DNA of 64,000 bases from the IMG/VR virus record IMGVR_UViG_3300010354_000044, positions 1 to 64,000 of that record. The stretch is one strand, 5' to 3'. The position numbers and the translations under genes are program-made. This document shows positions 21,999 through 51,712 of this stretch, one piece after another. Within the stretch, counting starts at the first letter, position 1. Every line of letters starts with the position of its first letter. Below the pieces are notes generated by a model that ran no database searches, was not told the DNA's origin, and saw only the letters and a program-made list of their open reading frames with translations. Source of the DNA: a virus.

Positions 21999-24900
21999 TT
22001 ATAAGGTTTGGATAGATAGACTATCTTCAATTTCACGAGTTACATTTACACGAATGTAATCAGCAGGGAATACCGGCGTGTAGAAGATTGCAATATTTAG
22101 AACGCCTTGAGCTACTGTATTTGAAGGATTATTAGACTCGTTACAAAGGGTAGGTCTATAAGCAATAATCCGCTCTTCTCTTTGTAGGTTTTGAAGATAA
22201 GCATCTACAGCGGAGGCTACTCGGCTGCGCAATCCTTCTGTATTCCGGTTTGACCGAACCCAGATAAGGTTACTGTATAGATCATGTAGAATCTGGTCGC
22301 CCATGCGGCGGATAGATACATAGCGATCGTTGTATAAGGACGTGGTACTAATCCCATTTAGGAACTTGAATGTTCTCAGGCCCGCGTCATAATACAAAAC
22401 CTCGGCTCTGGCTCGGGTTACCGCATCCAAATAAGTAGTCGTGGTAGGGGTATCTACAGAAATAACACCATTAGGAATCATCCCTTCCCCTGCGGCTGCT
22501 GGGGAGATTTCTGGATTCTTACTTGCTAGCAGTCCTACATAAAGACCAGCTGCTGGGGTATTGTTAAATCCAGGAACCCCTTGCATTGTAATGTGGCCGC
22601 CAATTAGTACAACCCTAGGGTTATCTAGACCAGCGGCTAATACTTGAGCCTGACTCTCAGATAGATTTTGAGGCGCCTGAATAACGGCAGTACGAAGTCC
22701 CGTCATTACATTGGCGCGGTTAACCTGCCCAACCATTTCTTCTACTACAGAAGAGTAGTTTTGGTCTCCTGCTGTAAAGCCAGCGCAGTATAGCAAGGAA
22801 ATATCTTCTGATTCCAGAGCTTGTACCGCTTGTCTTAGGATAACAGCACGTTCTGCAGAGGATAGACTAGAGATGCTAGCATCACTGCCTCCCTCCAGAT
22901 AAACATTCTGTAAGTAAGGAGAGCCTACAGCTCCTTGGGCATAGACGGGTAAACTGTACGAGGCGGTAGAGCTAGACGCTACATTCAATACAGGGATTCG
23001 GTCGCCGTAAGAGGGTGCTTGCCTCATAGGTACCTTATCCAGCTCGGCTTCCGTGAGTATCTGCCCAGCAACTACAGGAAGATAGAAGACTCGGATTAGC
23101 CGGCTGTTAGCCGAGGCGTTAAATAAACCATTGGTGGCTACGTCCCGGGTGGATAAAGTTAAGGTCTCAGACGTGGGGGTGCTCAGGTAATCTCCACTAT
23201 CCTCGTCTACAACAAACAGCGTAAACTGACCGTTTGCTTGCGGTGTAAGAGTAACCTTTAGCTTATTGCCATACACCCCATCAGACAGAGCTAGGACACG
23301 GATTAGAGCATCCGAATCAATAGAGTAGAAGTCTTTAAAAGCTGGTCTAGATCCAACCGTGGCCCCTGCAAACGTTTTGATAGACGTAGATAGCCAGTTG
23401 GTATTAGAATCTGGTAGGTTCGTAGCATTCAATAGAAAGTCTTCGGCTACCACACTACCAGTAGTGCCCGAGACCTGCCTAGTCAATACAGCTTTTAGGC
23501 GGTTTGCGTCCGAACCGGTATAGTTGGATTTTAGGGTTAGGCTGGGAGGGTTTAAAGTGACTGACAGCTCTGGTTCCGCCAACATGCCTAGCATGTTAAC
23601 ATCAGCCTCAATCGCGGCTTTCAATTGGCTTAAAATCTGACCGGCCCCAGTACCTACACTAAAGTTACTCTGGCCTGCGACTGAACCGATACCAACTGAA
23701 GCGTAGGCTACAGGCACCCGAAAGGTACCGCCCAGAAGGAACGCAATCTTGTTGGAACTTTCAATGCCTGGTAGGTCTACAGTAATACCAGAAGGGATAG
23801 CAAAAATAACACCATCACTGCGCTCGAACAGTAATTGATGGTTAAAATTATCTTGCTTAACAGCTTCATCTGAAACTACATAAGAATCTACAACCGCCGA
23901 ACGTAAATCGGATTCAAATTGTGTTTGCAAATAGCTGTAGGTCATAGGGTCACTTAGTACCCCTTGGCTGTTGGCAGGAATATTACCGCTTAGAGTCCCG
24001 TTAACTGTTACATTGCTCGCGCTAGCTGCAGCTTGGGTCCCTACTACAAAATACCCGTTAACCCCAAAATCAATAATAAACCCACGGTCTACACGGTAAG
24101 GCAAGGATGTTAGTTGAATAGAAGTAGCGCCATTGGTGTGCGCACTATTACCGGTAGTGACCGTTGAGTTAGCTTTTTTCTTGTACTGAGGTAAAGACCC
24201 AGAATTTACCCTGAATGTTGAAGAAAATACATACTTATTAGTAGCCACCTCGTACAGACTAACAGGGGCGTTAGAAAGAGCTGCCGAGATATTACCCTGC
24301 ACTAAGAATCTGACCATCGTAGGACTAGTGGGGTCCTGGCTGGCGTTAGATAGAACTACCAAGGGCTTCCCAGTGCTGGGGTTAAAAGCAGTGGCAGAAT
24401 TAGAGTAGATTAACCGCCCGGGCTTTAAGTTAGAGATGAAAGCTTGGTTAGCCGTAAGGGTCTGGTCCGCCTGTACCCACTGGATCTGAGCCTCTAAAGC
24501 AGGAGTTCCGCCGGTTTCCGGTACGTAGGTTTGAGGAGCTGTGACCAGGGCATTAGTAGTAATTACAGGCTCTACAGTCGGCTGAGTATTTTGTAAGATG
24601 GTTACCGTAGGGGTTGCAGAGGTCAATAAACCACTGAGGGCAACCGAAGTGTTAGAGCGTAAAGCATCGTTTACGAGCTTAAAGGTGGCGTTAGGAAAGT
24701 ACAGGTAAGAGCCGGCCCCTAGGTTAGTTGCTAGACTGGTGACCGTTAACGTCTTAACTTGTACGGCGGAGACAGTACCAGCTTCTAACGTGCCAGGGTT
24801 CTTAGATACAGTAGCCGTTACAGCAGGGGTTATAGCTGTAATCGTGACCTGCATGTTGTTGCTAGAGACTGAGTAAATCTCATTAACAGCAGGAGTAGCT

Positions 24901-25550
24901 CCCTGTGGGTTAGTTAAGGTTAGGGTCTGGTTTAACGCATAGGTTGTAGTTGAAGCTACGTCAAAAGAAATAGTCTTAGATACGTTAGATACCGGCGCAG
25001 CTACGGTTACTTGAACGCTGCTTTGCAGATAATCCTCTACAACATATTCAAATAAACCTAGGCCTGTATAATCAATAGAGGTAGGTAAAGCAGAGGCCGC
25101 AGATACCGAAAATGTACCTGCTGCCCTAGTAGACTCAATAGCTTCGCCAACATAACGAATGTCAAGCTTAAGTCCAGTTGTTTGAACCTGCGCGCCGTTG
25201 TTAAATTGTTGAATATTCCCACTGTAGCCTACACGAGCTTCGTTCGTAGGTAGCAGGCTGGAGAGACTGATTTTATAACTAGATTCAGTAGATTGAGGAG
25301 TAGCCCTAGAAATAATTAAATCAGTGGCCCCTTGTAGAATCGCTTGTCTTACGGCTACAGCCCCGGGAGAGTTATCATCTCCATAGAGATAAGCCGCGTC
25401 TTGGCGGTTGGTAACCCGAGTAGCTCCTCTAGGGCCCCGTCGGAACACACCAGCAACCCCAATCCGATTGCGGTATGTAGTAGTAAAAGGAATAGGCCCT
25501 ACAAGCGTTTCACTAAAAGAAACATTAGGAAAAGAGAATTGCTGCGCCAT
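21999..25550 (-). CDS. Tail sheath protein, unusually long
   Basis: The ends match contractile sheath proteins: N-terminal FSFPNVSFSETLVGPIPF and GVAGVFRRGPRGATRVTNRQ, and a C-terminal domain with AAGLDNPRVVLIGGH, AGLYVGLLASKN and RRMGDQILHDLYSNLIWVRS, ending in REIEDSLSIQTL. At 1,183 residues it is almost twice the length of T4 gp18. The extra ~500 residues (about 200-700) are Thr/Ser/Val-rich and look like inserted beta-domains exposed on the tail surface. This gene shows that the tail is contractile. It uses an ATG start with no gene overlap. Confidence 0.85.
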   Translation of the reverse strand: MAQQFSFPNVSFSETLVGPIPFTTTYRNRIGVAGVFRRGPRGATRVTNRQDAAYLYGDDNSPGAVAVRQAILQGATDLIISRATPQSTESSYKISLSSLLPTNEARVGYSGNIQQFNNGAQVQTTGLKLDIRYVGEAIESTRAAGTFSVSAASALPTSIDYTGLGLFEYVVEDYLQSSVQVTVAAPVSNVSKTISFDVASTTTYALNQTLTLTNPQGATPAVNEIYSVSSNNMQVTITAITPAVTATVSKNPGTLEAGTVSAVQVKTLTVTSLATNLGAGSYLYFPNATFKLVNDALRSNTSVALSGLLTSATPTVTILQNTQPTVEPVITTNALVTAPQTYVPETGGTPALEAQIQWVQADQTLTANQAFISNLKPGRLIYSNSATAFNPSTGKPLVVLSNASQDPTSPTMVRFLVQGNISAALSNAPVSLYEVATNKYVFSSTFRVNSGSLPQYKKKANSTVTTGNSAHTNGATSIQLTSLPYRVDRGFIIDFGVNGYFVVGTQAAASASNVTVNGTLSGNIPANSQGVLSDPMTYSYLQTQFESDLRSAVVDSYVVSDEAVKQDNFNHQLLFERSDGVIFAIPSGITVDLPGIESSNKIAFLLGGTFRVPVAYASVGIGSVAGQSNFSVGTGAGQILSQLKAAIEADVNMLGMLAEPELSVTLNPPSLTLKSNYTGSDANRLKAVLTRQVSGTTGSVVAEDFLLNATNLPDSNTNWLSTSIKTFAGATVGSRPAFKDFYSIDSDALIRVLALSDGVYGNKLKVTLTPQANGQFTLFVVDEDSGDYLSTPTSETLTLSTRDVATNGLFNASANSRLIRVFYLPVVAGQILTEAELDKVPMRQAPSYGDRIPVLNVASSSTASYSLPVYAQGAVGSPYLQNVYLEGGSDASISSLSSAERAVILRQAVQALESEDISLLYCAGFTAGDQNYSSVVEEMVGQVNRANVMTGLRTAVIQAPQNLSESQAQVLAAGLDNPRVVLIGGHITMQGVPGFNNTPAAGLYVGLLASKNPEISPAAAGEGMIPNGVISVDTPTTTTYLDAVTRARAEVLYYDAGLRTFKFLNGISTTSLYNDRYVSIRRMGDQILHDLYSNLIWVRSNRNTEGLRSRVASAVDAYLQNLQREERIIAYRPTLCNESNNPSNTVAQGVLNIAIFYTPVFPADYIRVNVTREIEDSLSIQTL

Positions 25551-33623: not shown

Positions 33624-34181
33624 ATGGCTATACCTTCTTTGGCTTATCTACTCTCGGTCCAGAAGCTACTGGAAGTTTATGTGAAAGAGTCTCTTGTAGA
33701 CCTAACTAAGCCTCAGTGTAATATCAGAATTCCAGGCTTACCCGCTCGCATGGTTTGTAGCCAGCAGCTTCTAAATCTGAGTGATTTTAACTGGGACTTT
33801 AGTAATTATGATTTCTGTCTGTCTATCTTAGAATTGGAAGAGTCTATCGCTGACTCAATAGCACACGCTCAGATAAGTAATAATAACCTTTTTATTATTA
33901 TGAACGACTTTAAGTCGTATAACTTCCTAGTACCTAACTATCCAGCGCTTTATGATAAGCTTGTAGCCGCCCAGATGATTCGCCTAGGTTGTACCTTAAG
34001 AGAGTACCCGGGCAGATATATTGTCATAAAGGACATCTCTACAAAACTATTTGAAACAAATGGTATAGCCTGTAGCTGTGAAGCGCCTCTATGTAACCAC
34101 AGAACGCTGGCTAATGTTTACATCAATAATTCCAAGCTGTTGCAACCTATTGTAAGTGCCAGCATGCCTGGTTATTTCTGA
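33624..34181 (+). CDS. SWIM-type zinc-finger protein encoded against the head operon
   Basis: The 185-residue product ends with ACSCEAPLCNHRTLANVYIN (CxC-x4-CxH), the signature of SWIM zinc fingers, which bind nucleic acid or partner proteins. The first ~120 residues are unassigned; FSNYDFCLSILELEESIADS and NNNLFIIMNDFKSYNFL suggest an alpha/beta domain. It runs on the plus strand between two minus-strand head genes and overlaps the portal gene 3' end by 10 bases. That placement is typical of an inserted moron gene with its own control. A role in DNA binding or in modulating the host is possible. Confidence 0.6.
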   Translation: MAIPSLAYLLSVQKLLEVYVKESLVDLTKPQCNIRIPGLPARMVCSQQLLNLSDFNWDFSNYDFCLSILELEESIADSIAHAQISNNNLFIIMNDFKSYNFLVPNYPALYDKLVAAQMIRLGCTLREYPGRYIVIKDISTKLFETNGIACSCEAPLCNHRTLANVYINNSKLLQPIVSASMPGYF

Positions 34182-35599
34182 TTTAACTTCCCACTAGGTT
34201 TACGCCCAGATACTGGTCTAGGTTTATCCAAAGGGGTAGAAACGCCTACGGGTCTGCCCGGCTGTACCTCTTCCAGCAATACCTTCTTGATAAAGTCTAC
34301 GTCCTTCTTATCGTGCGGCCTGTCTAAAGCTCTTACCATCTGCCGGACCATCTGGTGGTCAGTCGGATTCAAGGGGTTAAAGTAGCCAGACTTTGTCATA
34401 CCAGTGACGACTTGCATCATAGCCACACGATCTTCAGCCCGATCACTATAGACCCGAGAGAAGCTGGCTGCATACCGGGTTGATTCACGGTTGAAGTTAT
34501 ACTCAATTAGCCTTGAGAAGGCTTGGCGGGCAATAGGCTGTAGCAATAGATTCCTGTAGTGCTCCATATTGCCATAGTACAGCTCCATACGGCGCTCTAC
34601 CCCTTGTTCATTGTTATTCAATTCATTGGTAATAAGGAAAGGCGGGATACCCAGTGGTAAGATTTCTTGCTCAGTTACAAACCTAATAGCATCTATAAAC
34701 GTACTGCCGATATTATTTCCGGTGGTGAGAGAACCTACTTCAGGCTTATTCGCCCCATCCTGTTGGGGTAGGAATAGGATGTTACCGTTGGTATCTAAAT
34801 TCTGTATGGTCTCTTGAAATACATCCTGAGTGGTTAAACTACGCTCCTCGCCAGTAGCAGGGTCAATGGTAGTTTGATTGGTTGGGTAAACAGGCATCTT
34901 GACATATAGCAATGGATTACCATAACGGTCTAAAGCCACTGCCATCATGTCAATCAAGGCATCCTTTAACCTATGCCATTTATAACAAGGAGCTACCGCT
35001 GAATAACCATAATAATTACCAAATGCAGCATTATTAGCAACGTAGATGATCTTCCAGAAGGGCAGCTGCTTCTCGGGTCTAAATCTATTAGGTGTTTGAT
35101 AAATTCCTGATTTCCAGTACCCACCGGGCGTAGGTTTATTCTCGGTTAACATCCCGTTAACATCTGGGCGGATAATGATAGTGTTCGGCGGGTATGTCAC
35201 AATACCATCTAGGAACAGCGTACCCATGTCCAGATTATACAGATTCTCTGATACAGAGAACCCGGCCCACAAAGTCGTAAATATAGCTTGAAATAGTATT
35301 TCGTTTAGGTTCTGGTTGGTCTTATCCTGAAGTTTCTGAACGTTGTATTGTAGGAACTCTTTTATCTCTGGGTCCGGATGATAAACCGTACCAACAGTAG
35401 ATAAGATACTCTTTACCATTATATTGAGGGCAGTAAAGAGCGTTGTATCCTGATAGACCATCTGCTCGTAAGTTTTTAGCTTCTGGAGCGATGGGCGTAA
35501 GGTTCCTACTGGGATAGACCCTTGCTGCCTGGATGCACCCCGTATTTGACGCCTGCTCTCAAAGCGTCTATCTACTGTATAAAGGGTAGATGGGGCCAT
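34172..35599 (-). CDS. Portal protein (Mu gp29 / DUF935-like)
   Basis: The 475 residues show the Mu gp29-type portal plan: an N-terminal clip/wing lead-in (YEQMVYQDTTLFTALNIMVK, LWAGFSVSENLYNLD), YGYSAVAPCYKWHRLKDALI in the centre, then the stem-crown segment with IDAIRFVTEQEILPLGIPPF followed by NEQGVERRMELYYGNMEHY, and the late GYFNPLNPTDHQMVRQMV. Twelve copies form the vertex through which TerL pumps DNA. It is the first large gene of the head module after the small 35614 gene. ATG start. Confidence 0.85.
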   Translation of the reverse strand: MAPSTLYTVDRRFESRRQIRGASRQQGSIPVGTLRPSLQKLKTYEQMVYQDTTLFTALNIMVKSILSTVGTVYHPDPEIKEFLQYNVQKLQDKTNQNLNEILFQAIFTTLWAGFSVSENLYNLDMGTLFLDGIVTYPPNTIIIRPDVNGMLTENKPTPGGYWKSGIYQTPNRFRPEKQLPFWKIIYVANNAAFGNYYGYSAVAPCYKWHRLKDALIDMMAVALDRYGNPLLYVKMPVYPTNQTTIDPATGEERSLTTQDVFQETIQNLDTNGNILFLPQQDGANKPEVGSLTTGNNIGSTFIDAIRFVTEQEILPLGIPPFLITNELNNNEQGVERRMELYYGNMEHYRNLLLQPIARQAFSRLIEYNFNRESTRYAASFSRVYSDRAEDRVAMMQVVTGMTKSGYFNPLNPTDHQMVRQMVRALDRPHDKKDVDFIKKVLLEEVQPGRPVGVSTPLDKPRPVSGRKPSGKLNQK

Positions 35600-36250: not shown

Positions 36251-37006
36251 CTAAGAAACAGTGGCTTTGCGGGATTGTACTGGCGTAGTAGCTTCTGTCA
36301 AGTCTTTGGGACCTGAGGATAGCTGCTGCCTCAGATCGCCAGCTAACTTTTTTGCGTCATCCATATCAGTATCGCCAATAGTAAACATATTGATGAACAC
36401 CGTAGCTGCAAACTGGACATCAGCAATATCCCAGCTATCTAGAATAGAGATAACATCCTTTGGCTTTTCTACCTCTACGTCATTGACAGTAGCTAAGCAG
36501 TACGATAATAGAAACTCTTCTAACGAACATCCAGTTTCAGCCATGCCATTATACTTTTTGTCTGCCTGAAACTGTACGCCGGTAGAAGGGGTATTGAACT
36601 CAATAGTAAGGTTTGGGTTTGGCATAGACCCTTTCGGAATTCTATACCGGGGTTGGTACTGCTTAGACAGGTTCTCTGCAATTTCCTTTGCACTTTGAGC
36701 TTGTTCCTTAGATAGAAACAGCAAGTCTGTCATAGCGATTGTTAGAAACTGTCGGTCCCGAATAGGAAAAGGCTCTAGTCTATCAACGAGGTCCCGGGGC
36801 TGACTATCAAAGGGCTTATCATCTACCTCTTTCATAGCAATAGCCAAAAGCAGCTCTTCCACCGAATAAGGCATACGCTCCTGTTGAGGGTAACGGCGGC
36901 GTGCGCTTCGGTACATACTATACGTCGGAATTTCCAACGTCAGTGAATATAGTTGAGACGGGATCTGGCTTTTGTCAATCCGCAGAGTCTTTACATCAAT
37001 AGCCAT
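36251..37006 (-). CDS. Tail-assembly-chaperone-like protein with internal duplication
   Basis: The 251 residues contain two similar halves. About 47-98 reads YSVEELLLAIAMKEVDD ... LEPFPIRDRQFLTIAMTDLL, and about 160-212 reads CSLEEFLLSYCLATVNDVEV ... LDSWDIADVQFAATVFINMF. This helical pattern resembles tail assembly chaperones or gp26-like baseplate assembly factors, which are encoded near the tape measure. It is the first gene of the minus-strand block, divergent from the operon of the 3,051-residue protein. Function is inferred; the duplication is visible in the sequence. Confidence 0.5.
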   Translation of the reverse strand: MAIDVKTLRIDKSQIPSQLYSLTLEIPTYSMYRSARRRYPQQERMPYSVEELLLAIAMKEVDDKPFDSQPRDLVDRLEPFPIRDRQFLTIAMTDLLFLSKEQAQSAKEIAENLSKQYQPRYRIPKGSMPNPNLTIEFNTPSTGVQFQADKKYNGMAETGCSLEEFLLSYCLATVNDVEVEKPKDVISILDSWDIADVQFAATVFINMFTIGDTDMDDAKKLAGDLRQQLSSGPKDLTEATTPVQSRKATVS

Positions 37007-37117: not shown

Positions 37118-37354
37118 ATGGTTTATGGCAAGCTTTTACTAGTTACTATTTTTGCTATGCTTTACCAACGATCTAAGGCTTCTAATCTGGCCCTACAACT
37201 TACATTGGTGTACATTATTGTAACTCTGAATTTTATATCAGCCGGTATTACTAATGCCGCGGCCACTAAAATAACAGCAGAACGTATGACGGGCCGGCCA
37301 TCGACCAATGAAGCTGTTACCTACAGGCATAAAACCACAACTCCTGCGTATTAA
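37118..37354 (+). CDS. Small membrane protein coupled to the giant gene
   Basis: The 78-residue product has two hydrophobic stretches (LLLVTIFAMLY near the start, and LALQLTLVYIIVTLNFISAG at about 25-44) and a polar basic tail. Its stop and the start of the giant gene overlap (TAATG at 37352-37356), so translation is coupled. It could be a membrane partner that helps the giant protein enter the cell, or an unrelated membrane peptide. No family recognised. Confidence 0.6.
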   Translation: MVYGKLLLVTIFAMLYQRSKASNLALQLTLVYIIVTLNFISAGITNAAATKITAERMTGRPSTNEAVTYRHKTTTPAY

Positions 37355-40300
37355 TGTCTTTATTCCCCGAGTACAATATATACGGGCCAGATAGTCTTGG
37401 GCGTGATGTACAAAGGTTAATAGATTCAGAAGCTGACCCTGAAAGTATTGCCCGACGTCAACTAACTTTGCCTAACCTAGAGGCAGAACGTGAAGTTGCA
37501 GCTTTTAGGTTAAACTACGGTGAGGTTCATACAAAGCCTGGGAATCGTTACAACATACTGGGCCAAAAGCTATATGACCCTTTACCTACTGCAGTAGAAG
37601 GTCGGTTGGCTACTGGCAATTTGCAGGCAAATATCACGCAAGATAGAACGATTCAATTAAGAGGGTTAGAGGTTATCAACACCCTTAACTCCGGGCTAGG
37701 GGGTACAGCAGCCCCCGCTCTTAGTAATCGCCAGGGTTCTATGGCAAATCGTTTTACTAAGACGACAGTTTTTGATAGCCTTGTAGGCCCTAGTGATACT
37801 AATATTTTACGGGGTCTTGTTAATAGTCCGGTATTTGAAGAGCCGGTTACTGTAAGGCCTACAACTCAAGATATATCAAACCAATTAGTCTTTCCGACTC
37901 AACAACGCACTAATTATAGTTCCCATTTAGGGGCCTTTGCTCATAAAAATGTTAATGAACAAGGGGTGCAGGAATTATACAATAGCGTTGTCAACCTACA
38001 AAATAGTCTGGGTAATGCTATTACGTCTATAGAAAGACAGTATGCCCAGCAAATGGTTAATGGCCGCATTGAACGAGTACTAGTCGGCGTTCGTGTAGGC
38101 ATTCGTAATTATAACGATTTATACGATGGCCTAGGTTTATATAGTCAGGCATCTTATCCCGGTGTACAGCGGGCGCACTATTTCAATTTCACAGTTAATA
38201 GAAACAACCAGGTTATAGAGACCAGTACTAATAGACTTATTACAGGCTCTCTAATCTCTCAAAACTCTGGTCATATCTCTAATATGGGGGGTCGCAATAG
38301 CGCTTATAACACCGTACTGGGTTTACTTTCTAGCTATGCTAGGTCGGCTGAAATTGAGGCTAAGTACGGAGTTACTCATAGTCTATTTAATATCATGGTT
38401 GCGAGGCAAGACTATAGCTCGTTAGGGCGGGTCTTTGCTGAAATGCTAATTCAACGTGACCAAAGTACTATTGTTAACCAGGGTAATAAGTTCAGGGAAA
38501 CGCTGGAGCTTTTACTAAGCACGACAAATAATAAGGGCCTATCGTCCATTGTAGAAAATACGGTTGATAGGATCGCCAGACAAGGTCTAGATTACTATAC
38601 AACCATTGGGGCTCTATTAGATAAAGATGTACTAGAGCAGCAAATTAATAAACTTTATAGTTATAGGAAGCAGCAGCTACTAAAGGCCTTTGAACCTATT
38701 ACGTCCCATGTAGGTGGGATTAACGAGACGTTTGGTCTAGCTGTAGATACAACTTTACGCAACCTCAATGAGCTTGTAGCTAACGATGCCGAGCAGTTTT
38801 CTATTCCTATAAACGGGCGGCGGGTCACTATTGCCGGGTTTGAAGACCTGAAAATGGCTGCGTTGTCCCTCAGTCCATCGGAGCACGCTCATTATGATTT
38901 TAGAAAGAATCAAGCGAGTAGTTCCATATTGCAGCTTTTGATGTCGCCGTTTCTAATGCCGCACGAAACAGGCTTCAGCGGCTCCCAGGCTGCCGCTCGG
39001 CTTGGTTTCTACCACATGGTAGAAACTAGGGGTGGGCGTAATATGTATGAAATATACCCTGCAGTCTACCGGCATGGTTTCGGCGGCACAAAACCTGGGG
39101 AGTACATTAAATTAATCTCAGCACAGTCCGCTAAGTCCAGCTTATTTAAATACACCTCCCATTTATATAACTTTACCGGAGCCAAGAAAGTCGTAGAGTT
39201 CTTTGAAACTCGTACAGTCTTTGAAGGTATGCCCGCCTTGCGCTATAGCTCCCTCAAAGAAGTAAGGGAACACTTGCAGAGTATCAACTATACAAGCGCT
39301 GATGAGATTATAAAAAATTACAAGACTCGGATGCATCTTGGGGCGGATGAGGAGGATGACACTGAGATTCTACTACTGCCCTTTAGAAAGGCCGAGCAGA
39401 TTAGCCAGCGGTTAAAGAATCTACTAGGCGGGCGTCCTATGCTAGAACTTAACACAACCTTCCGCCAAGCTATTCTGAAGCAGGATAAAGAGGCTCTGCT
39501 TAACTTGTTTGAGCGTAATGAGTTCGGGGATTTGTATCTAAGCGCGAACGCCCTGGCCGGTGAAGTGCCCGCTAATCTAAACAAGATACAATATGACCGT
39601 CTTATTCTAGAACGGAATCGTATCATAAAACGTCTAGGCTACGAAGGTAGGGCTTTAAGTGATAGCGAAAAACTCATACTATCCACCGAGCTTGTTAAGG
39701 CCATGCGGGCAGCAGAGCTTGATATATTTGACGGAGGCGGTTTTGTACAAGGTCGCCGGACCCGGCGAGTTGCTGTAGCAATGGGTGTGAACACCCTTAG
39801 CGACTTCATGCTTGTTAATAATGATTACTTGCAAGCATCGTCTTTTGGGTACATGCATGTTAGTAACCAAAAAATTGCTATTACGCATACCCTTAAAACA
39901 GATAAAGTCGGTACGATACGGCAGCCTGACCCTTTATTTGATGCAAAGGTCAACTTTATTGCTAGCGCATTTAGGCCAGGGACTATTGTCTACTTACAAC
40001 CAAAGGCTTTAGAGAATGAGAAGGTAAAGGATAGCTTAAGCAGATTAGCGGCTAAGTTACGCAGTGAATATCTGGCCAAGAATTTAGACAGCCGCTATTT
40101 AGATGCGCAGGTTACGCAAGCTTTACTACAGTCTTTCCCTGCTCTTGATTCAGTTAGCTTTACTGATGGTGAGTTAACCACAGTAATGCTCAAAGCTGGT
40201 GCATATCAGTTTACTAATGACTCCATTAACTTCCTAGGGGCTCTGGAAGGAAGCAGAATCCGACTAGGATTAATGAATAAAGGGGGGCGCTTTAATCTAA

Positions 40301-43300
40301 CCACTGGCCCTAGCTCAGAGCCTGGCACTGAGTTCTTCGAAATAAAAGTACCTGGAGAAGTCCGTAAGTACACAGGAGGTATGCTAGCTGTTGCCGGGCC
40401 TACCAAAGCAAAGCCAGGTCAGGGCGGCGGCCTAGAGCTAGAAATCCCCTGGTTAATAGAAACAGGAATTGGAGGTACAAGCCGGTCATCTTCCCTGACT
40501 AAGGGGCCTTGGTTAATGTACGACGGCGCCGGATTTGAAGCCTTTGGCACGGCTTTCAAAGCCAATTCTATGCTTTCACATCTCCAGAATGACAGCATCT
40601 TTGCCGTGATGAACCCGGGCGTTTTCAAGGCTTATAATTATGAATCTGGGCTGTCTATTCTACGGGATACTGCGTCTAGGCAAAGTCTACTGAATTTAAG
40701 TAGCGGCGATTTAAGTTTGATTCTGGGTATCGCGTTTTTACAAAAGAACACGGATACCCGTCTTCGGCAAGCCCTGGTCAATTACCTAGACAGTAACTCC
40801 AGTTCACTAGCAGTAAGCCCTTACTTACGAACGCTTATTCAAGATAAATCCTTTGGATCATCAGCGGCTAAGTTAGAAAACCTCTTACTAACAGCTCCTG
40901 ACTTAGCTACCTTAGTAGATAGTCCAACCCTTAGAGACTTTGGAGATAAATTAGCTGAGCAATTTGAGAGTGGGACTTTTGATATACAGAGCCGACTTGA
41001 AGCTATTGTTAATAGGGCTCTTAAAGGGTCTACGACTATTTATGAACAGATAGAAGGGGATGTACGGGGCATTCGCACGTTTGACGAGCGAAACTTTAGT
41101 GTACGTAGTGCCGGCATTTTAGCTGATATTATTCATACAACACAACAAACAATAGACCCAAGCCGTACTTTAGGTCGTATAACAGGCAGTAAACCCTTAA
41201 CAGGCCTTAACTTTATAGATGATCAAGGCCGCCCTAACGTTAGAAAATTTATAGATAACCGCGATTTCCGGGCTGCATCGTTAGACATGGCGCAAAAACT
41301 AAGGGTGCGCTCTCTGTTGCCCAATCAGAGTATTTTAGAGAGCTCTTTAAGTCAGCTCAGGGAGGGGGATGCTCTTTATAAGGACATAGAGAACCTGCTC
41401 TATGTTATCCATAGTTCGTTAATGGCGTCTCCCTACATTGAACGAGCCATTAATTTACTACCTAGTCGTGTTTTATACCCGGCAGGCTCTGAGGACGCTG
41501 TAGGCCTAGAATACCATTATTCTTTAAGCCTTAGTAAAAAAGAGTTTGCGGCCTTACGGGGGCAGGGGCTTGATATGGAAAGGTTCACCCAAGCCCAAGC
41601 TGCTTATAGCACTGTTGTAACCCATAGTGGTGTTAATGAAATTAGCCGTAGGATGGAGATTATATCTCCATTTGGTGTAGACCCAGCGCAGCGGAATTTA
41701 GGTCGTATCGTCTCGGCGCTTATACAGAATTACAATGAGATATCGGGTAAAGCTCAGTTTATTGGTAATGATAACCTTAGCCCCTTAGATGCTATTGTCC
41801 GTAGTATAAGCGCCGGGGATGAGACTGAGCTAAATAGCTTAATGTCCCGGTATCAACTTATTAATCAAGCCGTAAGGTATCATCGCGGCGTAGGCCCCTC
41901 TGACCAACAAAGTGCGGTTAATCTGATAAGTGCGGTTAATCTGATAACTGCGCTTAACCCGAGTCGGCTTGATTTAAGTCAAGCCACTGACGAGCAAATT
42001 AGAACCTTAGGAGCTTTATATAACCTAAGGGGCGATGTTACTACTATCCGGCAAAGGTTGTCGGAGTTAGGCCCTACGTTGGGCCGAGGTCTGCTTTATT
42101 TAGACCGCAGTGACAATCTATTTAGTGAAAGGCGCTTGGCTTTGTCTAAAGCCATTATAACCTACTCGGAGTTAAGACGAAATAAGGGGCTTACTGACTT
42201 AAGTTACAACCTAAGTCCTTATGCTGCTGACGTACAGTCTGCATTAGTAACTTCAAATGTTAATAGCTACAATATTGGGTTTCTTGAGTTTGAGCAGGCC
42301 TTAAATTTAGTCACAGACCAGTCCTCCGGACGCCTTGATGTTAGATACGCCGATAATAGGTCTACAAAGATACTTAATGTAGCCAGTAAATTGCAAGCTA
42401 ATGACGCTTTTGTAGAACGGCTAGCGTTGAACGCCGCGGGTACTAGCACTACAGATACGTTTATTAATTCTCTACAGCGAATAGTAGCCGGTACAGAGAA
42501 TATTCTTAAATTCTATGGAAAGGAGACTGAACAAGCCCAGAGAGCACTAAAACTTCGTAGTGAAGTTTACGATACAAAAACGTTGCTCCTACCTGCTATT
42601 GAAACATATACAGCGGGAGACGGGACTATTATAAAACTAGCTGAGTCAGATAGTAACGGAAAAGTACAGTATACAGATACTCCCGTAGTTCAACTAGGGT
42701 TGGATGTTCTAAGTCAAATACCTACTAGATTTGAATCTTACATTAATGAAGTTGTGGAACGCCAGCAACGTATTCGTGAGCTGATTCCTAAATTCCAGGA
42801 AGTGGTTAACCAATTACAGAAGGGCTTCATCTCTAATGCATCTGTCAGCGATATCAGCATTATAGAAGAGATGCAGCGATTAGCTTACGAAAGTCAACAT
42901 GATTTAGAATCTATTTTAACGTCTGTTCTGCAGCAGAATGCTGAGAACGAGAAGCGTAAATACCCTGGGGTGGCGTTTACAGCAGTAGCTGATTACTTAG
43001 CTACACCTACAGAGGCTTTTGTCGGTAAGCGAGTTACCTCCACTGGGTTAAACCAGGTAGTTAGGGATGCGAAAGCTACTTTAAACTCCCCGGAGCTGTC
43101 CAAGGTAGAAGTAGAAGCACTACAACGTATCGGCCAGTTAACCGGGTATGTCAACAGGGCTGGGGGCTTAAGCGGAGCAAGCCAGTCTACTAACATGCTC
43201 CATGATGTTAAGTCTCAGGCTATTCTAAAAGAACGTGGTCAGCTAGAGAATAATCAATTACAGCTATCTCTACAGGGTAATGAAACAGCCTTGATTGTTT

Positions 43301-46300
43301 CTATGTACGGACGATTCGGGGTCCATGGCGGTGACTTTGATGGTGACTCTTATCAGCTGATATTCGGATTTAGGGATATCCAAGAAAGCCTTGTCAAGGC
43401 TATTCAGCACCGCGATGCTATCCGTAATAGCCTGCTAAACCTACAGAGTCAATCTACTCTAAATTCAGATTACAATGTCGCTATTCAAGGTAGGATATCC
43501 AATCTACAGACAGCCCTTACCGCCAGCCAGCAGGACGTAGATAGGTTAATTACTGAGGTAGATAATCTAAGCACCATTACCGCCGACCGGGTTAAAGAGG
43601 GTATGCGTAGGCACGTAGCTGCTTTTACGGGTATTCCCTTGTCTTTGGCTCTAAAACCGGAATATTACAGCGATGAAGAAATCGCGTACATGATTGAACA
43701 GCAGCGAGGGGTTACTCCGGGTTTGACTGACGCCGGCGAGAAGTATGGCGATCAAATAACAAAGTTTACTCAGCTGTTTAACAGACTTAATCCAACCACT
43801 CTCGCTAGTGCCTCGGATGAGATTATTGATTCTGAAGCTAGCCGACTCAAGTTCAGCGCAGAGGAGCTTAGTCTCTTCAAGGAGTTTGCCCGCCAAGATA
43901 ATTTGTACGCGGACAATCTAACGGCTTCGGACCGTAACCGTTTATTTACCGAATCTATCACGTCTTATTTTAACCTGCACATGGGTTTATCTGAAGGGAA
44001 TAAATTTGCCCAGGCCGCCGCAGGTTCTGTATTGGATTTAGGAACCTTTGAGGTTCTCCAGACGGTAGTAGGTAATGTAGGGACATCCTTAATTGGTGAA
44101 GGCTATAACGCTATCACGACACTTATTGGCCGCAGTGTTCTAGCTAGAACTATGGGGCAGGCCTTAAATGACCCTACTACAAATATAGGCGAGGGAATCG
44201 TTCAAGCGCTGGATACCCTAAATACCAATAATACTTTAGACGATAATGTAACCCGTATCAAAGACTTATTTTCAGAAGGGCGATTAAAGCAAACGGCGGC
44301 GTTTGCCGAGTCCCGGGCCCAGCAGTTACAAATGAATTTAGGGCTTATCCAGCAAATCATCCGGGACTCGCTAAAGCCAAAACAAGAGGGAGGGACTATT
44401 GCGGCCATTGCGGAGCAGATGGGCGATGAAAGCTTTAAGACTAAGTTCCTTAACGAGCAAGATACGGACACGCGCATGGAGTTGTTGCGCAACTTCGTGT
44501 CCACCAGAGCGGTGACAACCATGGTTGGGAGTCAGACCTCTGGTAATACTTCCCTTATCAATACCTTCGGGGCTATCTTTTTATTAGCTGACTATACAAA
44601 GCTAGAGGACCCTACCTCTATGCTACGTAGTGATAGCCCTCGGTACGATACGCTGCGCCGCACCCAGCAACTATACAAATCAGCCGCAGAAGGGCTTGAC
44701 GTTAATCTTGAAAGTTTAGACGTTATCAGCCGCTTGAGACTCAAAGACAAAGAGTTTGTGGCCCGGATGGCGACAGATGAAGAATTTTTGGTACGTCAGA
44801 CAATAACTGATCTGATCAATACAGCGGTAGCTGAGGAGGCTTTCAATAAGTACTATGCTTATGGTCAAAGTGACGAATCTCTAATAAGCCGAGCTAACAT
44901 TGAGCGAGATAACTATATTAAAGCGTTATCCGACTCTAACCTTACAGGGGATAGCGGGCTGTACTTCAAGAACGAGCAGCACAGAGAAGCCGTCAGGAGA
45001 AGCCTCCATATAGATGGAAATACCGATGACTTTTTCTTTACGGCAGAGACGGCCCGGCAGTCCTTGTTAGACATAACTCTGGTGCGTAAAACCTTCCTGG
45101 GCATGACTGAGAGCGATGTAGAGTTCTCCCGGAAGGTCAATAGGGCCGGGTCCATTCTATCGCAGCCTGACATTAGTGCCAGTTTTGCCCCTTTTGCCAG
45201 TGCCCAGGCCGAGAACCTTGTAGCTATCCAACAATGGGCTAAGCGTGGTCGTATGGACGACCCTAGAGCCATGACTACATTTGAGATTGGTTCATCCGCA
45301 CGTTTATTTGACGCAATAGACCAGGTCCACCAGAATCTGACGGAGGAGTTTGGTTCTCTAGAAAACGCATTATCTAAACAGGAAGTATACGCAGCCTATT
45401 CTCAGATGGCCGAGCTCGCCGGCGTGTTTGATATTAGCAGGGAGGATAGTAATATTCTAAGCTTGGCGCTTCAGACAAGAGTTGAGGGCCGGCAGTCTAT
45501 ATTCTCAGAGTTAGCTAATTACAATGCCGGACTTGCTTATATGCAGGAACGTATTAACCAGCAACAGGATATTATTTCAAAAGGTACCTTAACTGATGCA
45601 GACGAAAGTCGGTTAAATACCCTTTACGCAGACCTAGAAGCTTTTGCCACCGGCTTAGATGCTAATGCCAATCAGAACGAGGCCTTCAGAGCTAAGGTAA
45701 GAGAGATTGGCGAGTTTCAGCGCTCCTTAAAAATGGACCAGGCTCAGCAGAGAAAGGCCACCTACGCCAATATTATTAATACAAAAATACATACACCTAC
45801 CTCCCTAGATGTTACTGGGTATGGGTTTAATAACACCTTGGAATTGTTTGCGGCCCCTATTATTGGGGCTGCGTTAATCCAAGGGGGACTTGACGAGCGG
45901 TTAGTCTCTGGGACTTACGATTTACTGCAGGGTCTGTCTACCGTTGAGGGTTCGGCCGGCAATGTAAGAGCACTAGAAGCTGACCGGTTATTTAGGTTGG
46001 CGCGCTTTAAAGAGCAAATGTTACAAGGGGAAAGTTTGCTTTTAGGTGCAACTCAAGCCCTAGCTGCCGAGACATTTTTCATGGGAACTGCGTCTTTAAT
46101 TGCCTCCAAATTACGTTCCCCCAACTCCCCCTCCCCTAACTCCCCTAACAATCGGCAGTCTGGTTTAAGTGGAATTATGGCCGAGGCAGTGGTTACAGCT
46201 GCTGCCTTGGCTTTTACTCGCCGGAACAACCAATATGGTATTGACGGAGAACCTTACCGAAATCTCGCTGCAGAGGCTCTATTACAGACAGCGGAAGCAA

Positions 46301-46509
46301 TAGAATCTAGCACCAGCGAATGGTTAGAACGTGCTATGGATATCCAGGTAGAAACGGAAGATCAAATTGTTACCTTTGATTTTGATCCTTCCATTGCCCC
46401 TAGTAGCTATGAAGAGCGTATTGTAACTGGCTGGATTGAGATGAGCATAGAAAACTCTGACGAATTTGCTAATGCTTATTATGAAACTGGGAATTATATT
46501 GATGGGTAA
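37354..46509 (+). CDS. Giant 3,051-residue protein with DFDGD motif; candidate single-chain virion RNA polymerase
   Basis: The motif at residues 1990-2003 (VHGGDFDGDSYQLI; Asp1994, Asp1996, Asp1998) matches the Mg-binding DxDGD loop of the double-psi beta-barrel of multisubunit RNA polymerases (bacterial NADFDGDQM). Single-chain proteins with this motif include YonO of SPbeta and the ~2,180-residue gp66 of crAss-like phage phi14:2, which is packaged in the virion and injected. Here the region before the motif (about 1880-1990) is mixed alpha/beta and the region after it is helical. A Lys-containing stretch at about 1020-1080 might hold the other barrel, but I cannot show this. The C-terminus has two mildly hydrophobic segments (APIIGAALIQGG, AVVTAAALAF). 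The main alternative is a tape measure, because no other one is visible and the chaperone candidate is next door. Confidence 0.6.
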   Translation: MSLFPEYNIYGPDSLGRDVQRLIDSEADPESIARRQLTLPNLEAEREVAAFRLNYGEVHTKPGNRYNILGQKLYDPLPTAVEGRLATGNLQANITQDRTIQLRGLEVINTLNSGLGGTAAPALSNRQGSMANRFTKTTVFDSLVGPSDTNILRGLVNSPVFEEPVTVRPTTQDISNQLVFPTQQRTNYSSHLGAFAHKNVNEQGVQELYNSVVNLQNSLGNAITSIERQYAQQMVNGRIERVLVGVRVGIRNYNDLYDGLGLYSQASYPGVQRAHYFNFTVNRNNQVIETSTNRLITGSLISQNSGHISNMGGRNSAYNTVLGLLSSYARSAEIEAKYGVTHSLFNIMVARQDYSSLGRVFAEMLIQRDQSTIVNQGNKFRETLELLLSTTNNKGLSSIVENTVDRIARQGLDYYTTIGALLDKDVLEQQINKLYSYRKQQLLKAFEPITSHVGGINETFGLAVDTTLRNLNELVANDAEQFSIPINGRRVTIAGFEDLKMAALSLSPSEHAHYDFRKNQASSSILQLLMSPFLMPHETGFSGSQAAARLGFYHMVETRGGRNMYEIYPAVYRHGFGGTKPGEYIKLISAQSAKSSLFKYTSHLYNFTGAKKVVEFFETRTVFEGMPALRYSSLKEVREHLQSINYTSADEIIKNYKTRMHLGADEEDDTEILLLPFRKAEQISQRLKNLLGGRPMLELNTTFRQAILKQDKEALLNLFERNEFGDLYLSANALAGEVPANLNKIQYDRLILERNRIIKRLGYEGRALSDSEKLILSTELVKAMRAAELDIFDGGGFVQGRRTRRVAVAMGVNTLSDFMLVNNDYLQASSFGYMHVSNQKIAITHTLKTDKVGTIRQPDPLFDAKVNFIASAFRPGTIVYLQPKALENEKVKDSLSRLAAKLRSEYLAKNLDSRYLDAQVTQALLQSFPALDSVSFTDGELTTVMLKAGAYQFTNDSINFLGALEGSRIRLGLMNKGGRFNLTTGPSSEPGTEFFEIKVPGEVRKYTGGMLAVAGPTKAKPGQGGGLELEIPWLIETGIGGTSRSSSLTKGPWLMYDGAGFEAFGTAFKANSMLSHLQNDSIFAVMNPGVFKAYNYESGLSILRDTASRQSLLNLSSGDLSLILGIAFLQKNTDTRLRQALVNYLDSNSSSLAVSPYLRTLIQDKSFGSSAAKLENLLLTAPDLATLVDSPTLRDFGDKLAEQFESGTFDIQSRLEAIVNRALKGSTTIYEQIEGDVRGIRTFDERNFSVRSAGILADIIHTTQQTIDPSRTLGRITGSKPLTGLNFIDDQGRPNVRKFIDNRDFRAASLDMAQKLRVRSLLPNQSILESSLSQLREGDALYKDIENLLYVIHSSLMASPYIERAINLLPSRVLYPAGSEDAVGLEYHYSLSLSKKEFAALRGQGLDMERFTQAQAAYSTVVTHSGVNEISRRMEIISPFGVDPAQRNLGRIVSALIQNYNEISGKAQFIGNDNLSPLDAIVRSISAGDETELNSLMSRYQLINQAVRYHRGVGPSDQQSAVNLISAVNLITALNPSRLDLSQATDEQIRTLGALYNLRGDVTTIRQRLSELGPTLGRGLLYLDRSDNLFSERRLALSKAIITYSELRRNKGLTDLSYNLSPYAADVQSALVTSNVNSYNIGFLEFEQALNLVTDQSSGRLDVRYADNRSTKILNVASKLQANDAFVERLALNAAGTSTTDTFINSLQRIVAGTENILKFYGKETEQAQRALKLRSEVYDTKTLLLPAIETYTAGDGTIIKLAESDSNGKVQYTDTPVVQLGLDVLSQIPTRFESYINEVVERQQRIRELIPKFQEVVNQLQKGFISNASVSDISIIEEMQRLAYESQHDLESILTSVLQQNAENEKRKYPGVAFTAVADYLATPTEAFVGKRVTSTGLNQVVRDAKATLNSPELSKVEVEALQRIGQLTGYVNRAGGLSGASQSTNMLHDVKSQAILKERGQLENNQLQLSLQGNETALIVSMYGRFGVHGGDFDGDSYQLIFGFRDIQESLVKAIQHRDAIRNSLLNLQSQSTLNSDYNVAIQGRISNLQTALTASQQDVDRLITEVDNLSTITADRVKEGMRRHVAAFTGIPLSLALKPEYYSDEEIAYMIEQQRGVTPGLTDAGEKYGDQITKFTQLFNRLNPTTLASASDEIIDSEASRLKFSAEELSLFKEFARQDNLYADNLTASDRNRLFTESITSYFNLHMGLSEGNKFAQAAAGSVLDLGTFEVLQTVVGNVGTSLIGEGYNAITTLIGRSVLARTMGQALNDPTTNIGEGIVQALDTLNTNNTLDDNVTRIKDLFSEGRLKQTAAFAESRAQQLQMNLGLIQQIIRDSLKPKQEGGTIAAIAEQMGDESFKTKFLNEQDTDTRMELLRNFVSTRAVTTMVGSQTSGNTSLINTFGAIFLLADYTKLEDPTSMLRSDSPRYDTLRRTQQLYKSAAEGLDVNLESLDVISRLRLKDKEFVARMATDEEFLVRQTITDLINTAVAEEAFNKYYAYGQSDESLISRANIERDNYIKALSDSNLTGDSGLYFKNEQHREAVRRSLHIDGNTDDFFFTAETARQSLLDITLVRKTFLGMTESDVEFSRKVNRAGSILSQPDISASFAPFASAQAENLVAIQQWAKRGRMDDPRAMTTFEIGSSARLFDAIDQVHQNLTEEFGSLENALSKQEVYAAYSQMAELAGVFDISREDSNILSLALQTRVEGRQSIFSELANYNAGLAYMQERINQQQDIISKGTLTDADESRLNTLYADLEAFATGLDANANQNEAFRAKVREIGEFQRSLKMDQAQQRKATYANIINTKIHTPTSLDVTGYGFNNTLELFAAPIIGAALIQGGLDERLVSGTYDLLQGLSTVEGSAGNVRALEADRLFRLARFKEQMLQGESLLLGATQALAAETFFMGTASLIASKLRSPNSPSPNSPNNRQSGLSGIMAEAVVTAAALAFTRRNNQYGIDGEPYRNLAAEALLQTAEAIESSTSEWLERAMDIQVETEDQIVTFDFDPSIAPSSYEERIVTGWIEMSIENSDEFANAYYETGNYIDG
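41911..41946 (+). repeat. Recent 18-base in-frame tandem duplication
   Basis: AGTGCGGTTAATCTGATA occurs twice in a row without a mismatch, giving SAVNLI-SAVNLI in the giant protein, followed by the diverged TALN. Perfect identity indicates recent slippage. Confidence 0.8.
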
Positions 46510-46569
46510 ATGTCAGACCTAAATTATTGACTATACTATTTATTTATTACTTACTATTATCTATTTATT

Positions 46570-46644
46570 ATGATTTGGTCTAGCACGTCTTGGCTTATTT
46601 TTGGCTTTACGTTATATCTCATGACTTTGAAATTATTCCTTTAG
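46570..46644 (+). CDS. Micro-ORF for a 24-residue hydrophobic peptide
   Basis: ATG at 46570 to TAG at 46642-46644 encodes a peptide starting MIWSSTSWLIFGFTLYLM, in effect one membrane span. It follows a TTGACT box at 46527-46532 and runs straight into the terminator at 46643. No ribosome-binding site is evident. It may be a real microprotein or chance in an AT-rich gap; the rest of the 213-base gap holds only that possible promoter and the terminator. Confidence 0.3.
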   Translation: MIWSSTSWLIFGFTLYLMTLKLFL

Positions 46645-46676
46645 CCGAAGGCGGCTGTACGCTCGGCTTCTTTATT
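46643..46676 (+). terminator. Intrinsic terminator after the giant gene
   Basis: AGCCGA (46643-46648) pairs with TCGGCT (46663-46668), with an inner GCG/CGC pair set, followed by TCTTTATTT. It lies about 135 bases after the giant gene stop and before the fibre operon starting at 46723. Confidence 0.65.
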
Positions 46677-46722
46677 TGCAGATCGCATACTTTGCTTAAA
46701 TCCTCTTTGATAAAATGGGTTC

Positions 46723-50098: not shown

Positions 50099-51712
50099 AT
50101 GGTGCTCTTTAATTTTGACTTAGGGCGGACCTTAGACGCATTAGATGTAGGGGCTAATAATCTACAGAAAATCCGAGATGCCTGGAATTTAAGTAGTCAA
50201 GAGGAGCGCGAAGCTACTGCGCAGAAGGCTATATTAGATGACCTGAGTCCGTTTCTTTCTCTAAATCCAGAGAATACACAGTCCGGGTTTTTATCTACTG
50301 AACTAATAAGCGGGCCAGCTAGTAACCGTATTTCACAGGCTATAGAGCAGCAGTTCTACCAACGTACTGATTATTTCTCTATCACTTACTATGACAAGTA
50401 TGTAGGAAAAGCCAGAAATTTTGCTTTTTCTTTGCTGCCTGCAATTGAAAATAGTATTAGGCCTAATATCCCGGGCCAGACAGTACCTGGTGTGATGCCG
50501 GGTATTATGATACATACCAAAATGAGGCACCGAGCGGTCCTTATACCTGGTGGGACTCCGGTCTATCAAAGCATAGGGCTTGAGGCTGTTGAAATAAGAT
50601 TATGTGGACTGTTTACCGGAAATGAAAATGCACTTGCGCCGAAAGGTAAATCAGCGCTATTTACGGACTCTCCAGAACTTAATGTCGTTAGTGGCTATGA
50701 TGTAGCGCAGTTCTTTCGGGAGAATATTGTTATACCTGGGACGCCGGTTGAATTAGATATCTTTGCGTCTAATGGTCACATAGATGTAACCGGAGACTCT
50801 TTATCTGAATTAGAACAGCGAGCAGGGTTAGTCCGCATCACCGGGACATTATTAATTAATGAGTTACGTACCTTCAGCGCTAGGGCCTCCCGGGATTACT
50901 ATTGTATTGATGGTTATCTAATTAACTATAAATTAGAGAAGCGCGCCGATCCAGAAGGTTCTGGAGCTGCTGCGGATATCAAGGCTTGTCTACAAAAAGC
51001 TGAAGAGTATAAAAAGAATAAGGCTTCGGCTAAAGAGGCTGCCAAGTCTCAAACTCAAGCCTTAGCAGGACCTGGGCTAGTAGTTTTACCAGAATCCGAA
51101 TACCGCCGGGCTTTAGATATCTACACCGCCGAGGTTAAAAGTGGCCCTGGCGCTCAGTTTCCAACCGTAGGTCGGGCTAAGCAGGGTGATAGCCTTCAGT
51201 TGACAGGTCGGCTTGATAATGGCTGGGCGGAGCTAGCGGACGGTAACTGGATACAAGCCACCTATGTGAAATTCAGTGCTCCGAATGTAGGTCCTGGTGT
51301 TATAGGAACAGGATCTACTCCTTTCCCGCCGTTTGACCCAAATTGCATGCGTATCCTTAAAAATGCGAATGTAGATGTGTCTCAGTTAAATAATGATTTA
51401 GAGGAACCTCTTGCAGAAAGGCCCCCAGCTAACGAGCTGGACGGAGATGGTAGCTCTAAAGTAATTAAAGGCGTAGGGCCTTTTAGTCTGAACGTCATGA
51501 AAAGCGGGCTTGACTCTAATCAAGTTTCGGAGCAGTTAAAGCGCTTAGGGACCGAGGCTGGATTAATAAAGGTTATTTCTGGCCAAAGTGTCTCAGTAGG
51601 TCCATTAGATAATACAACCGCCAACCTATTGTATGGCCGGTATAAAGAAGCACAGTTCACTATTTATACCTACACTAGTGAACCTGGCGGTACCCCTTCA
51701 GCTGCGCGGTAA
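50099..51712 (+). CDS. Baseplate/tail protein with SH3 domain
   Basis: The 537 residues begin with a helical and beta part containing SITYYDKYVGKARNFAFSLL and IMIHTKMRHRAVLIPGGTPV. At about 340-395 there is a bacterial SH3 domain (YTAEVKSGPGAQFPTVGRAK ... WAELADGNWIQATYVKF), which usually binds peptidoglycan or repeats. A Lys/Ala-rich helix (AEEYKKNKASAKEAAKSQTQ) links the halves. The job may be to hold or recognise the cell wall during attachment. ATG start one base after the previous stop. Confidence 0.6.
   Translation: MVLFNFDLGRTLDALDVGANNLQKIRDAWNLSSQEEREATAQKAILDDLSPFLSLNPENTQSGFLSTELISGPASNRISQAIEQQFYQRTDYFSITYYDKYVGKARNFAFSLLPAIENSIRPNIPGQTVPGVMPGIMIHTKMRHRAVLIPGGTPVYQSIGLEAVEIRLCGLFTGNENALAPKGKSALFTDSPELNVVSGYDVAQFFRENIVIPGTPVELDIFASNGHIDVTGDSLSELEQRAGLVRITGTLLINELRTFSARASRDYYCIDGYLINYKLEKRADPEGSGAAADIKACLQKAEEYKKNKASAKEAAKSQTQALAGPGLVVLPESEYRRALDIYTAEVKSGPGAQFPTVGRAKQGDSLQLTGRLDNGWAELADGNWIQATYVKFSAPNVGPGVIGTGSTPFPPFDPNCMRILKNANVDVSQLNNDLEEPLAERPPANELDGDGSSKVIKGVGPFSLNVMKSGLDSNQVSEQLKRLGTEAGLIKVISGQSVSVGPLDNTTANLLYGRYKEAQFTIYTYTSEPGGTPSAAR

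Follow-up and report, generated by a model that had tools for sequence, protein, structure and literature searches.

Single-chain RNA polymerases with two double-psi beta-barrels are known from several phages. YonO of SPbeta is a protein of about 100 kDa whose Asp triad is essential (PMC5467207), gp66 of the crAss-like phage phi14:2 is a virion RNA polymerase made of a single giant chain with a DxDGD motif, and gp96 of P23-45 (5,002 amino acids, aa) is a virion RNA polymerase fused to a tape measure and shown to be active (PMC10770324). P23-45 carries two RNA polymerases, gp96 in the virion and the non-virion gp64 (PMC10770324). A double-barrel architecture with DxDGD or an equivalent active site is also found in the eukaryotic QDE-1/RDR polymerases and in PolD. 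Here we describe a 3,051-residue protein encoded in IMG/VR virus record IMGVR_UViG_3300010354_000044, of which the first 64 kb of 171,984 bases (positions 1 to 64,000, hereafter the window) were analysed. We consider this protein, with a probability of about 0.8, to be a DNA-dependent RNA polymerase of this single-chain, two-barrel kind, highly divergent and most likely packaged in the virion.

The window protein shares some features with each of these enzymes and differs from all of them. It is like P23-45 gp96 in its giant size, its DFDGD sequence, its lack of sequence similarity to known RNA polymerases and its virion-gene context, and gp96 serves as a precedent because it was found by the same route and then proved to be an active virion RNA polymerase (PMC10770324). 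In gp96, however, DFDGD is near the N-terminus (779/5,002), whereas in the window protein it lies about two-thirds along (1994/3,051); a tape-measure fusion is not evident, and the phage has a contractile tail and cyanophage relatives. The window protein is like gp66 in being a single giant chain with DxDGD, two predicted barrels and a proposed place in the virion, but it is about 40% longer, belongs to phages related to Ma-LMM01 rather than to crAss-like phages, and has family relatives most of which bear an N-terminal PLD-like motif. It shares with YonO the (predicted) single-chain two-barrel plan, and with QDE-1/RDR and PolD the type of active site, although it is far from YonO in sequence, and the latter enzymes belong to other hosts, have another architecture and show no similarity in PDB sequence searches. 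A tblastn search with residues 801-3051 against 50,697 phage records gave no match, including to gp96-like or gp66-like sequences. Because there is no detectable sequence similarity, the window protein is not placed in the gp96, gp66 or YonO families, and the suggestion made on first inspection of the DNA (the original prediction) that it represents a new branch agrees with the position of its family, which stands apart from known RNA polymerases. The closest cultured counterpart is gp080 of Ma-LMM01, with its orthologues in MaMV and My-WqHQDG, which belongs to the same family and occupies the same neighbourhood (gp083, gp081); unlike gp080, the window protein is without the PLD-like HxK...D/GSxN signature.

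The open reading frame (ORF) at 37354-46509 on the + strand begins with ATG and runs for 3,051 codons with no internal stop, and translation bears out both this single ORF and the sequence GGDFDGDS at residues 1992-1999 from which the original prediction of a polymerase was made, DFDGD being residues 1994-1998. The sites referred to below are as follows.

37354..46509, + strand: the giant protein, 3,051 aa, a candidate single-chain two-barrel RNA polymerase (ORF, family alignment).
39388..39435, + strand: residues 679-694, an invariant K..Q..QR..N motif used as an independent probe (family alignment, pattern scan).
40141..40683, + strand: candidate double-psi barrel B, residues ~930-1110, with R1044, K1050 and K1092 invariant in 22/22 members (model with a predicted template modelling score, pTM, of 0.60; weak Foldseek matches to second-largest RNA-polymerase subunits).
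42946..43383, + strand: candidate double-psi barrel A, residues ~1865-2010, six strands, the triad falling after the fifth and before the sixth (AlphaFold2 model of 1740-2445; Foldseek against PDB).
43150..43173, + strand: residues 1933-1940 (NRAGGLSG region), the counterpart of the family R-S-P-P-x-G motif (Arg invariant in 23/23 rows; Pro missing in the window protein).
43333..43347, + strand: codons of D1994-F-D-G-D1998, the candidate catalytic Asp triad (kept in 10/10 probe-found relatives covering the site and in 23/23 rows of alignment A9).
44071..44109, + strand: residues 2240-2252, a conserved G..G....G..YN motif downstream of the triad (family alignment).
44353..44382, + strand: residues 2334-2343, an invariant Q..RD..K.K motif (family alignment).

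DFDGD is the sole match of the D-x-D-x-D type within the window protein, and a protein of the same composition would be expected to contain about 0.0013 copies of DFDGD and 0.03 of D.DGD by chance. Taken alone the string is nonetheless weak evidence for a polymerase, because a motif-profile search of PDB returned as its best matches antibody light chains sharing DFDGDSY. It is raised above chance because it is kept in distant relatives that were retrieved without using the motif.

By sequence comparison, the window protein falls into a family, so far unassigned, that has at least 23 members, all of them giant phage proteins of about 3,000-5,000 aa. The first relative (L002, 4,729 aa, 31% identity across the motif region) came from a conserved-peptide scan, and others were found with a DNA pattern for GDFDGD-x-Y and then linked among themselves by blastp (L055, 3,360 aa; L056, 3,488; L059, 3,311; L060, 3,702; L057, 4,379; L062, 4,838; L063, 4,789; L064, 3,923; L065, 4,035; and two open frames, L058 and L061, the latter >5,000 aa). 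Agreement at the motif among these first-found relatives is not counted as evidence because the motif was used to select them. An independent probe, a pattern for K..Q..QR.KN..G (residues 679-692) that lies some 1,300 residues upstream of the triad, was scanned alone and yielded 10 new relatives readable through the triad site. All ten have D-[FYW]-D-G-D, as DYDGD (L117, L120, L124, L126), DFDGD (L118, L121, L122, L125, L127) or DWDGD (L119); the triad is thus kept in proteins fetched by a distant probe, and its conservation is therefore no artefact of the motif search. When the same probe was run on 84,980 bacterial and archaeal genomes, none of its 15 matches was homologous, and as far as pattern scans reach the giant family seems to be confined to phages.

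Conservation extends well beyond the triad. First, the residues invariant in 22/22 members include K679, Q682, Q685, R686, N689, D817, R1044, K1050 and K1092 in the upstream part, and P1747, G1872, G2243, G2248, N2252, Q2334, R2337, D2338, K2341 and K2343 in the remainder. Second, an Arg about 50-65 residues ahead of the triad is invariant in 23/23 rows, and most members begin R-S-P-P-x-G or similar there, which we liken to the R-A-P that precedes DFDGD by 35 residues in E. coli RpoC (beta-prime NRAPTLHR). Third, the family members are for the most part only 10-25% identical to the window protein. D-x-D-G-D is also the start of EF-hand loops, and the string DFDGDSY arises by chance in antibody light chains, so that the giant could in principle be a structural protein with a fortuitous or calcium-binding loop and no polymerase function. 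We regard this as highly improbable: D-x-D-G-D is retained at such low identity, invariance extends to three more basic residues and to several polar ones, and the EF-hand pattern D-x-D-G-D-G-x-I-x-x-x-E does not fit the family alignment, in which position 6 is variable, with no conserved Gly, and position 12 has no conserved acidic residue.

Searches with the window protein alone found no match in Pfam, PHROGs, PDB sequences, phage records or plasmid records, and cultured relatives surfaced only when other family members served as queries. Ma-LMM01 gp080 (YP_851094.1; 3,562 aa, annotated as hypothetical, DFDGD at 2537) matches member L060 with an E-value of 1e-121 and the window protein with 5e-7, and has orthologues in MaMV phages; in Microcoleus phage My-WqHQDG the family member is WOL31285 (2,622 aa, 5′-incomplete), in which DFDGD is present. 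A published survey of viral two-barrel polymerases (PMC10770324) may already list gp080 or the LMM01 protein gp064, which is discussed below. Most members, for example L057, L060, L125 and gp080, have the PLD-like signature HxK....D......GSxN within their N-terminal 270-470 residues (PLDc_2 match in L060, E 0.005), and gp080 is named in BFVD/UniProt solely for this domain; the signature is missing from the window protein and from its nearest relatives L055 and L056. LMM01 gp120 and a 4,151-aa protein of My-WqHQDG were considered as positional counterparts and rejected, as they have no DxDGD and no similarity. Further phage proteins with GDFDGDxY (L066-L071, 1,645-2,787 aa) were likewise set aside, having no blastp link to the window family; they are related among themselves and possibly form a separate two-barrel polymerase family. 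In L118 (G022, - strand) the giant ORF is interrupted by one in-frame stop that divides it into parts of 1,471 and 2,231 aa, the latter containing DFDGD; the stop could reflect readthrough, recoding or a sequence error.

The two halves of the window protein were modelled apart with AlphaFold2, as residues 1740-2445 (20 alignment rows) and 650-1200. The first model has strands at 1872-1880, 1887-1890, 1930-1935, 1950-1954, 1980-1983 and 1999-2004; DFDGD falls between the last two and is followed by a long helix (low to moderate confidence). This modelled strand order around the triad fits double-psi barrel A. In a Foldseek search against PDB, RNA-polymerase largest subunits occupy nearly all of the top 50 matches to this model, the best being yeast RNA polymerase I (E 0.019, probability 0.98) and the others bacterial, plastid and RNA polymerase II; the result is support for a polymerase fold in the model, short of proof. 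For the 650-1200 model, the top probabilities against PDB are second-largest subunits, weakly (7d58_B 0.28, 5c4a_B 0.18), while against BFVD it matches LMM01 gp080 at 1.4e-8, with viral RNA polymerases, not significant alone, at ranks 2, 3, 4, 7 and 10. The region of R1044, K1050 and K1092 is strand-rich in the model, and the supply of two basic residues by the other barrel is a hallmark of the two-barrel superfamily (PMC7824862). A likeness to second-largest subunits upstream and to largest subunits downstream is the order expected for a single-chain two-barrel enzyme. Barrel B would accordingly offer the basic residues R1044, K1050 and K1092, barrel A the Mg-binding triad D1994/D1996/D1998, and the invariant motifs at 2240-2343 would form elements behind the active site, among which the position of Q..RD..K.K would suit a bridge-helix/trigger-loop-like element.

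Several observations weigh against a polymerase. First, searches of Pfam, PHROGs and PDB sequences, with the single protein or with family profiles, found no RNA polymerase. Second, when the family profile was compared with E. coli RpoC by hhalign, the triad alone was aligned, and 16/60 column shuffles that keep the triad reach the real score. Third, model confidence is modest, with a mean predicted local distance difference test score (pLDDT) of 63.5 and pTM of 0.30 for 1740-2445, and a pLDDT of 69.3 and pTM of 0.60 for 650-1200. Fourth, there are no non-family Foldseek matches at E<0.001, template modelling scores for the 1740-2445 model are low, and the many RNA-polymerase matches count as roughly one because these chains are very redundant in PDB. 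Fifth, the window protein reads RAGGLSG at the R-x-P site, and so is without the Pro that is present in many family members. Finally, promoters like those of host sigma70 are reported from the LMM01 transcriptome for the early, middle and late classes alike (PMC5780444), so that these data do not require a virion polymerase for early transcription. Nonetheless, the triad is strongly constrained across a diverse family and the region around it, with six modelled strands, is matched to largest subunits; this much of the original prediction stands, and the two facing barrels that it foresaw are candidates, from halves modelled apart at modest confidence. On balance the window protein is very probably a two-barrel RNA polymerase, as predicted.

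The active-site signature is silent on template and substrate, and GGDFDGDSY recalls eukaryotic RNA-dependent polymerases, a likeness that we take to be a lead only. The protein might thus be a two-barrel polymerase of a different type, one that copies RNA or makes DNA in the manner of QDE-1 or PolD, for example, or else a structural descendant that has lost catalysis. We think this very unlikely, since those phage analogues of the same architecture for which assays exist are DNA-dependent RNA polymerases (PMC5467207, PMC10770324), and strict conservation speaks against a dead enzyme.

Whether such a polymerase is carried in the virion is a matter on which the gene neighbourhood bears. The - strand half of the window contains terminase, portal, protease, major head protein, large tail sheath, tube and baseplate genes, and the sheath, tube and baseplate genes bear out the contractile tail that had been predicted. 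The neighbouring features are these.

21999..25550, - strand: tail sheath (contractile tail).
34172..35599, - strand: portal protein (a homologue lies close to the giant gene in almost every relative covering that flank).
36251..37006, - strand: 251-aa divergent neighbour, phrog_32670, of unknown function (kept beside the giant gene in relatives).
50099..51712, + strand: 537-aa protein in the downstream + strand cluster (conserved close to the giant gene in L002, L055 and L056 as well).

As originally described, the giant gene is located among structural genes, adjoining the portal and other virion genes. Homologues of the 251-aa protein and of the portal are near it even in the most distant relatives (L124, L126, L127), and in Ma-LMM01 gp080 adjoins gp081 and is close to gp083, which is annotated 'tail protein' and has a portal-like position. 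Since the giant gene remains linked to virion genes, in most cases to the portal, packaging is the most likely reading of this linkage, and the window protein is probably a virion component. A polymerase that works solely after its own synthesis during infection, and is never packaged, is in our view unlikely. The giant gene does open a + strand cluster that is divergent from the portal cluster, as might suit such a protein, but its linkage to the portal and the 251-aa neighbour is kept across distant relatives, and a second RNA-polymerase-like protein (described below) sits in the non-structural region, as in the virion/non-virion pair of P23-45.

It is also conceivable, though distinctly doubtful, that the giant serves in addition as tail tape measure, the polymerase making up a part of it, as is the case for P23-45 gp96. 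This double role is kept in view because no obvious tape-measure ORF is recognised in the window's tail cluster, where the largest unassigned ORF is of 911 aa, and because gp96 provides a precedent. However, hydropathy detects no transmembrane-like segment in the window protein, its gene is beside the portal rather than the tail tube, family lengths range from about 3,000 to 5,000 aa, and LMM01 has besides gp080 a separate gp120 of 2,898 aa that is rich in hydrophobic segments. A giant encoded beside the portal is more reminiscent of ejected virion polymerases than of a tape measure. Returning to a packaged polymerase, the 251-aa protein is possibly its chaperone or packaging partner, an idea suggested by the adjacency of the two genes in relatives; it is about twice the length of many of its homologues (112-145 aa, phrog_32670). 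The small membrane protein said to be coupled to the giant gene was not confirmed, as 46510-46722 holds only a 50-aa ORF with a TTG start (46590-46742), which overlaps the gene after the giant gene.

A second giant with a polymerase-like site is encoded in the same record, 1.4 kb past the window.

65417-73942 of the same record (L128:2417-10942), + strand: second giant, 2,841 aa, with R-A-P...DFDGD (ORF, domain matches).

This gene is about 19 kb further on than the portal-linked giant gene, and its product contains a Dda-type helicase (phrog_325, 1.6e-77), NADAR (2.1e-18) and a macro domain (1.3e-10), with VRAPMTRS...FNLGDFDGDG lying between the helicase and the NADAR/macro domains. Relatives are present in G001, G002, G005 and G024. 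LMM01 gp064 (L136; NC_008562.1 43811-48832; 1,673 aa, 'hypothetical') has QRTPM...NEGDADGDQ, with gp064-like proteins in G006, G010 and G011, and My-WqHQDG WOL31509 has GRTP...NNGDTDGDP together with a NADAR-like stretch resembling that of the 2,841-aa protein. At this site all of the proteins from G001, G002, G006, G010, G011 and G024 keep R-x-P-M (R-R-M-P-M in L141) and D-x-D-G-D, the middle residue of the latter differing among relatives; the G005 fragment ends short of the site. The hhalign score of the giant-family profile around the triad against the second-giant proteins beats 60/60 triad-keeping shuffles. From these sequences, the window phage and its relatives seem to carry two polymerase-like giants. 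The gp064 gene adjoins the early-gene cluster gp054-gp063, and the annotated 42-bp tandem repeats between them (43271-43551) might be a promoter array.

We propose, as about an even bet, that LMM01-type phages, whose hosts are bloom-forming cyanobacteria, run an overlooked two-polymerase programme in which a portal-linked virion giant (the window protein, gp080) is joined by another two-barrel polymerase that the infected cell produces (65417-73942; gp064). In the reading that we favour for the window protein, it would be packaged through its link with portal-side virion genes and would enter the cell along with the DNA; D1994/D1996/D1998, together with basic residues of the opposite barrel, would then carry out Mg-dependent RNA synthesis, yielding the first phage transcripts, and the second giant, once synthesised, would take over transcription. 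The transcriptome study left open the timing of LMM01's three expression classes, LMM01 being without T4-type transcription factors (PMC5780444), and if correct our reading would give a testable answer to how this phage times its genes; the polymerase pair would bear on three expression classes that have no known sigma factor. It would also mean that a large and diverse set of phages, laboratory Microcystis phages included, has RNA polymerases of its own that are annotated as 'hypothetical protein', and would add a deep branch to the single-chain two-barrel polymerases, a group used in reasoning on how cellular transcription arose. The existence of cultured relatives makes the polymerase claim directly testable.

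The window terminase is closest to those of Microcystis phages (Ma-LMM01 and MaMV relatives) and Microcoleus phage My-WqHQDG (~34.5% identity). The prediction of a cyanobacterial phage is upheld to the extent that its closest cultured relatives infect cyanobacteria, and a cyanobacterial host is a reasonable guess on this sequence evidence. Elsewhere in the window, a 362-aa protein (59884-60972, - strand) has an actin/ParM-like GVDIGGGTVEM motif. Formylglycine-enzyme-like proteins are of a type often diversified in phages, and the same record contains three paralogues with F-x-MGSP start motifs of this kind, at 85147-85926, 98870-99631 and 105220-105993.

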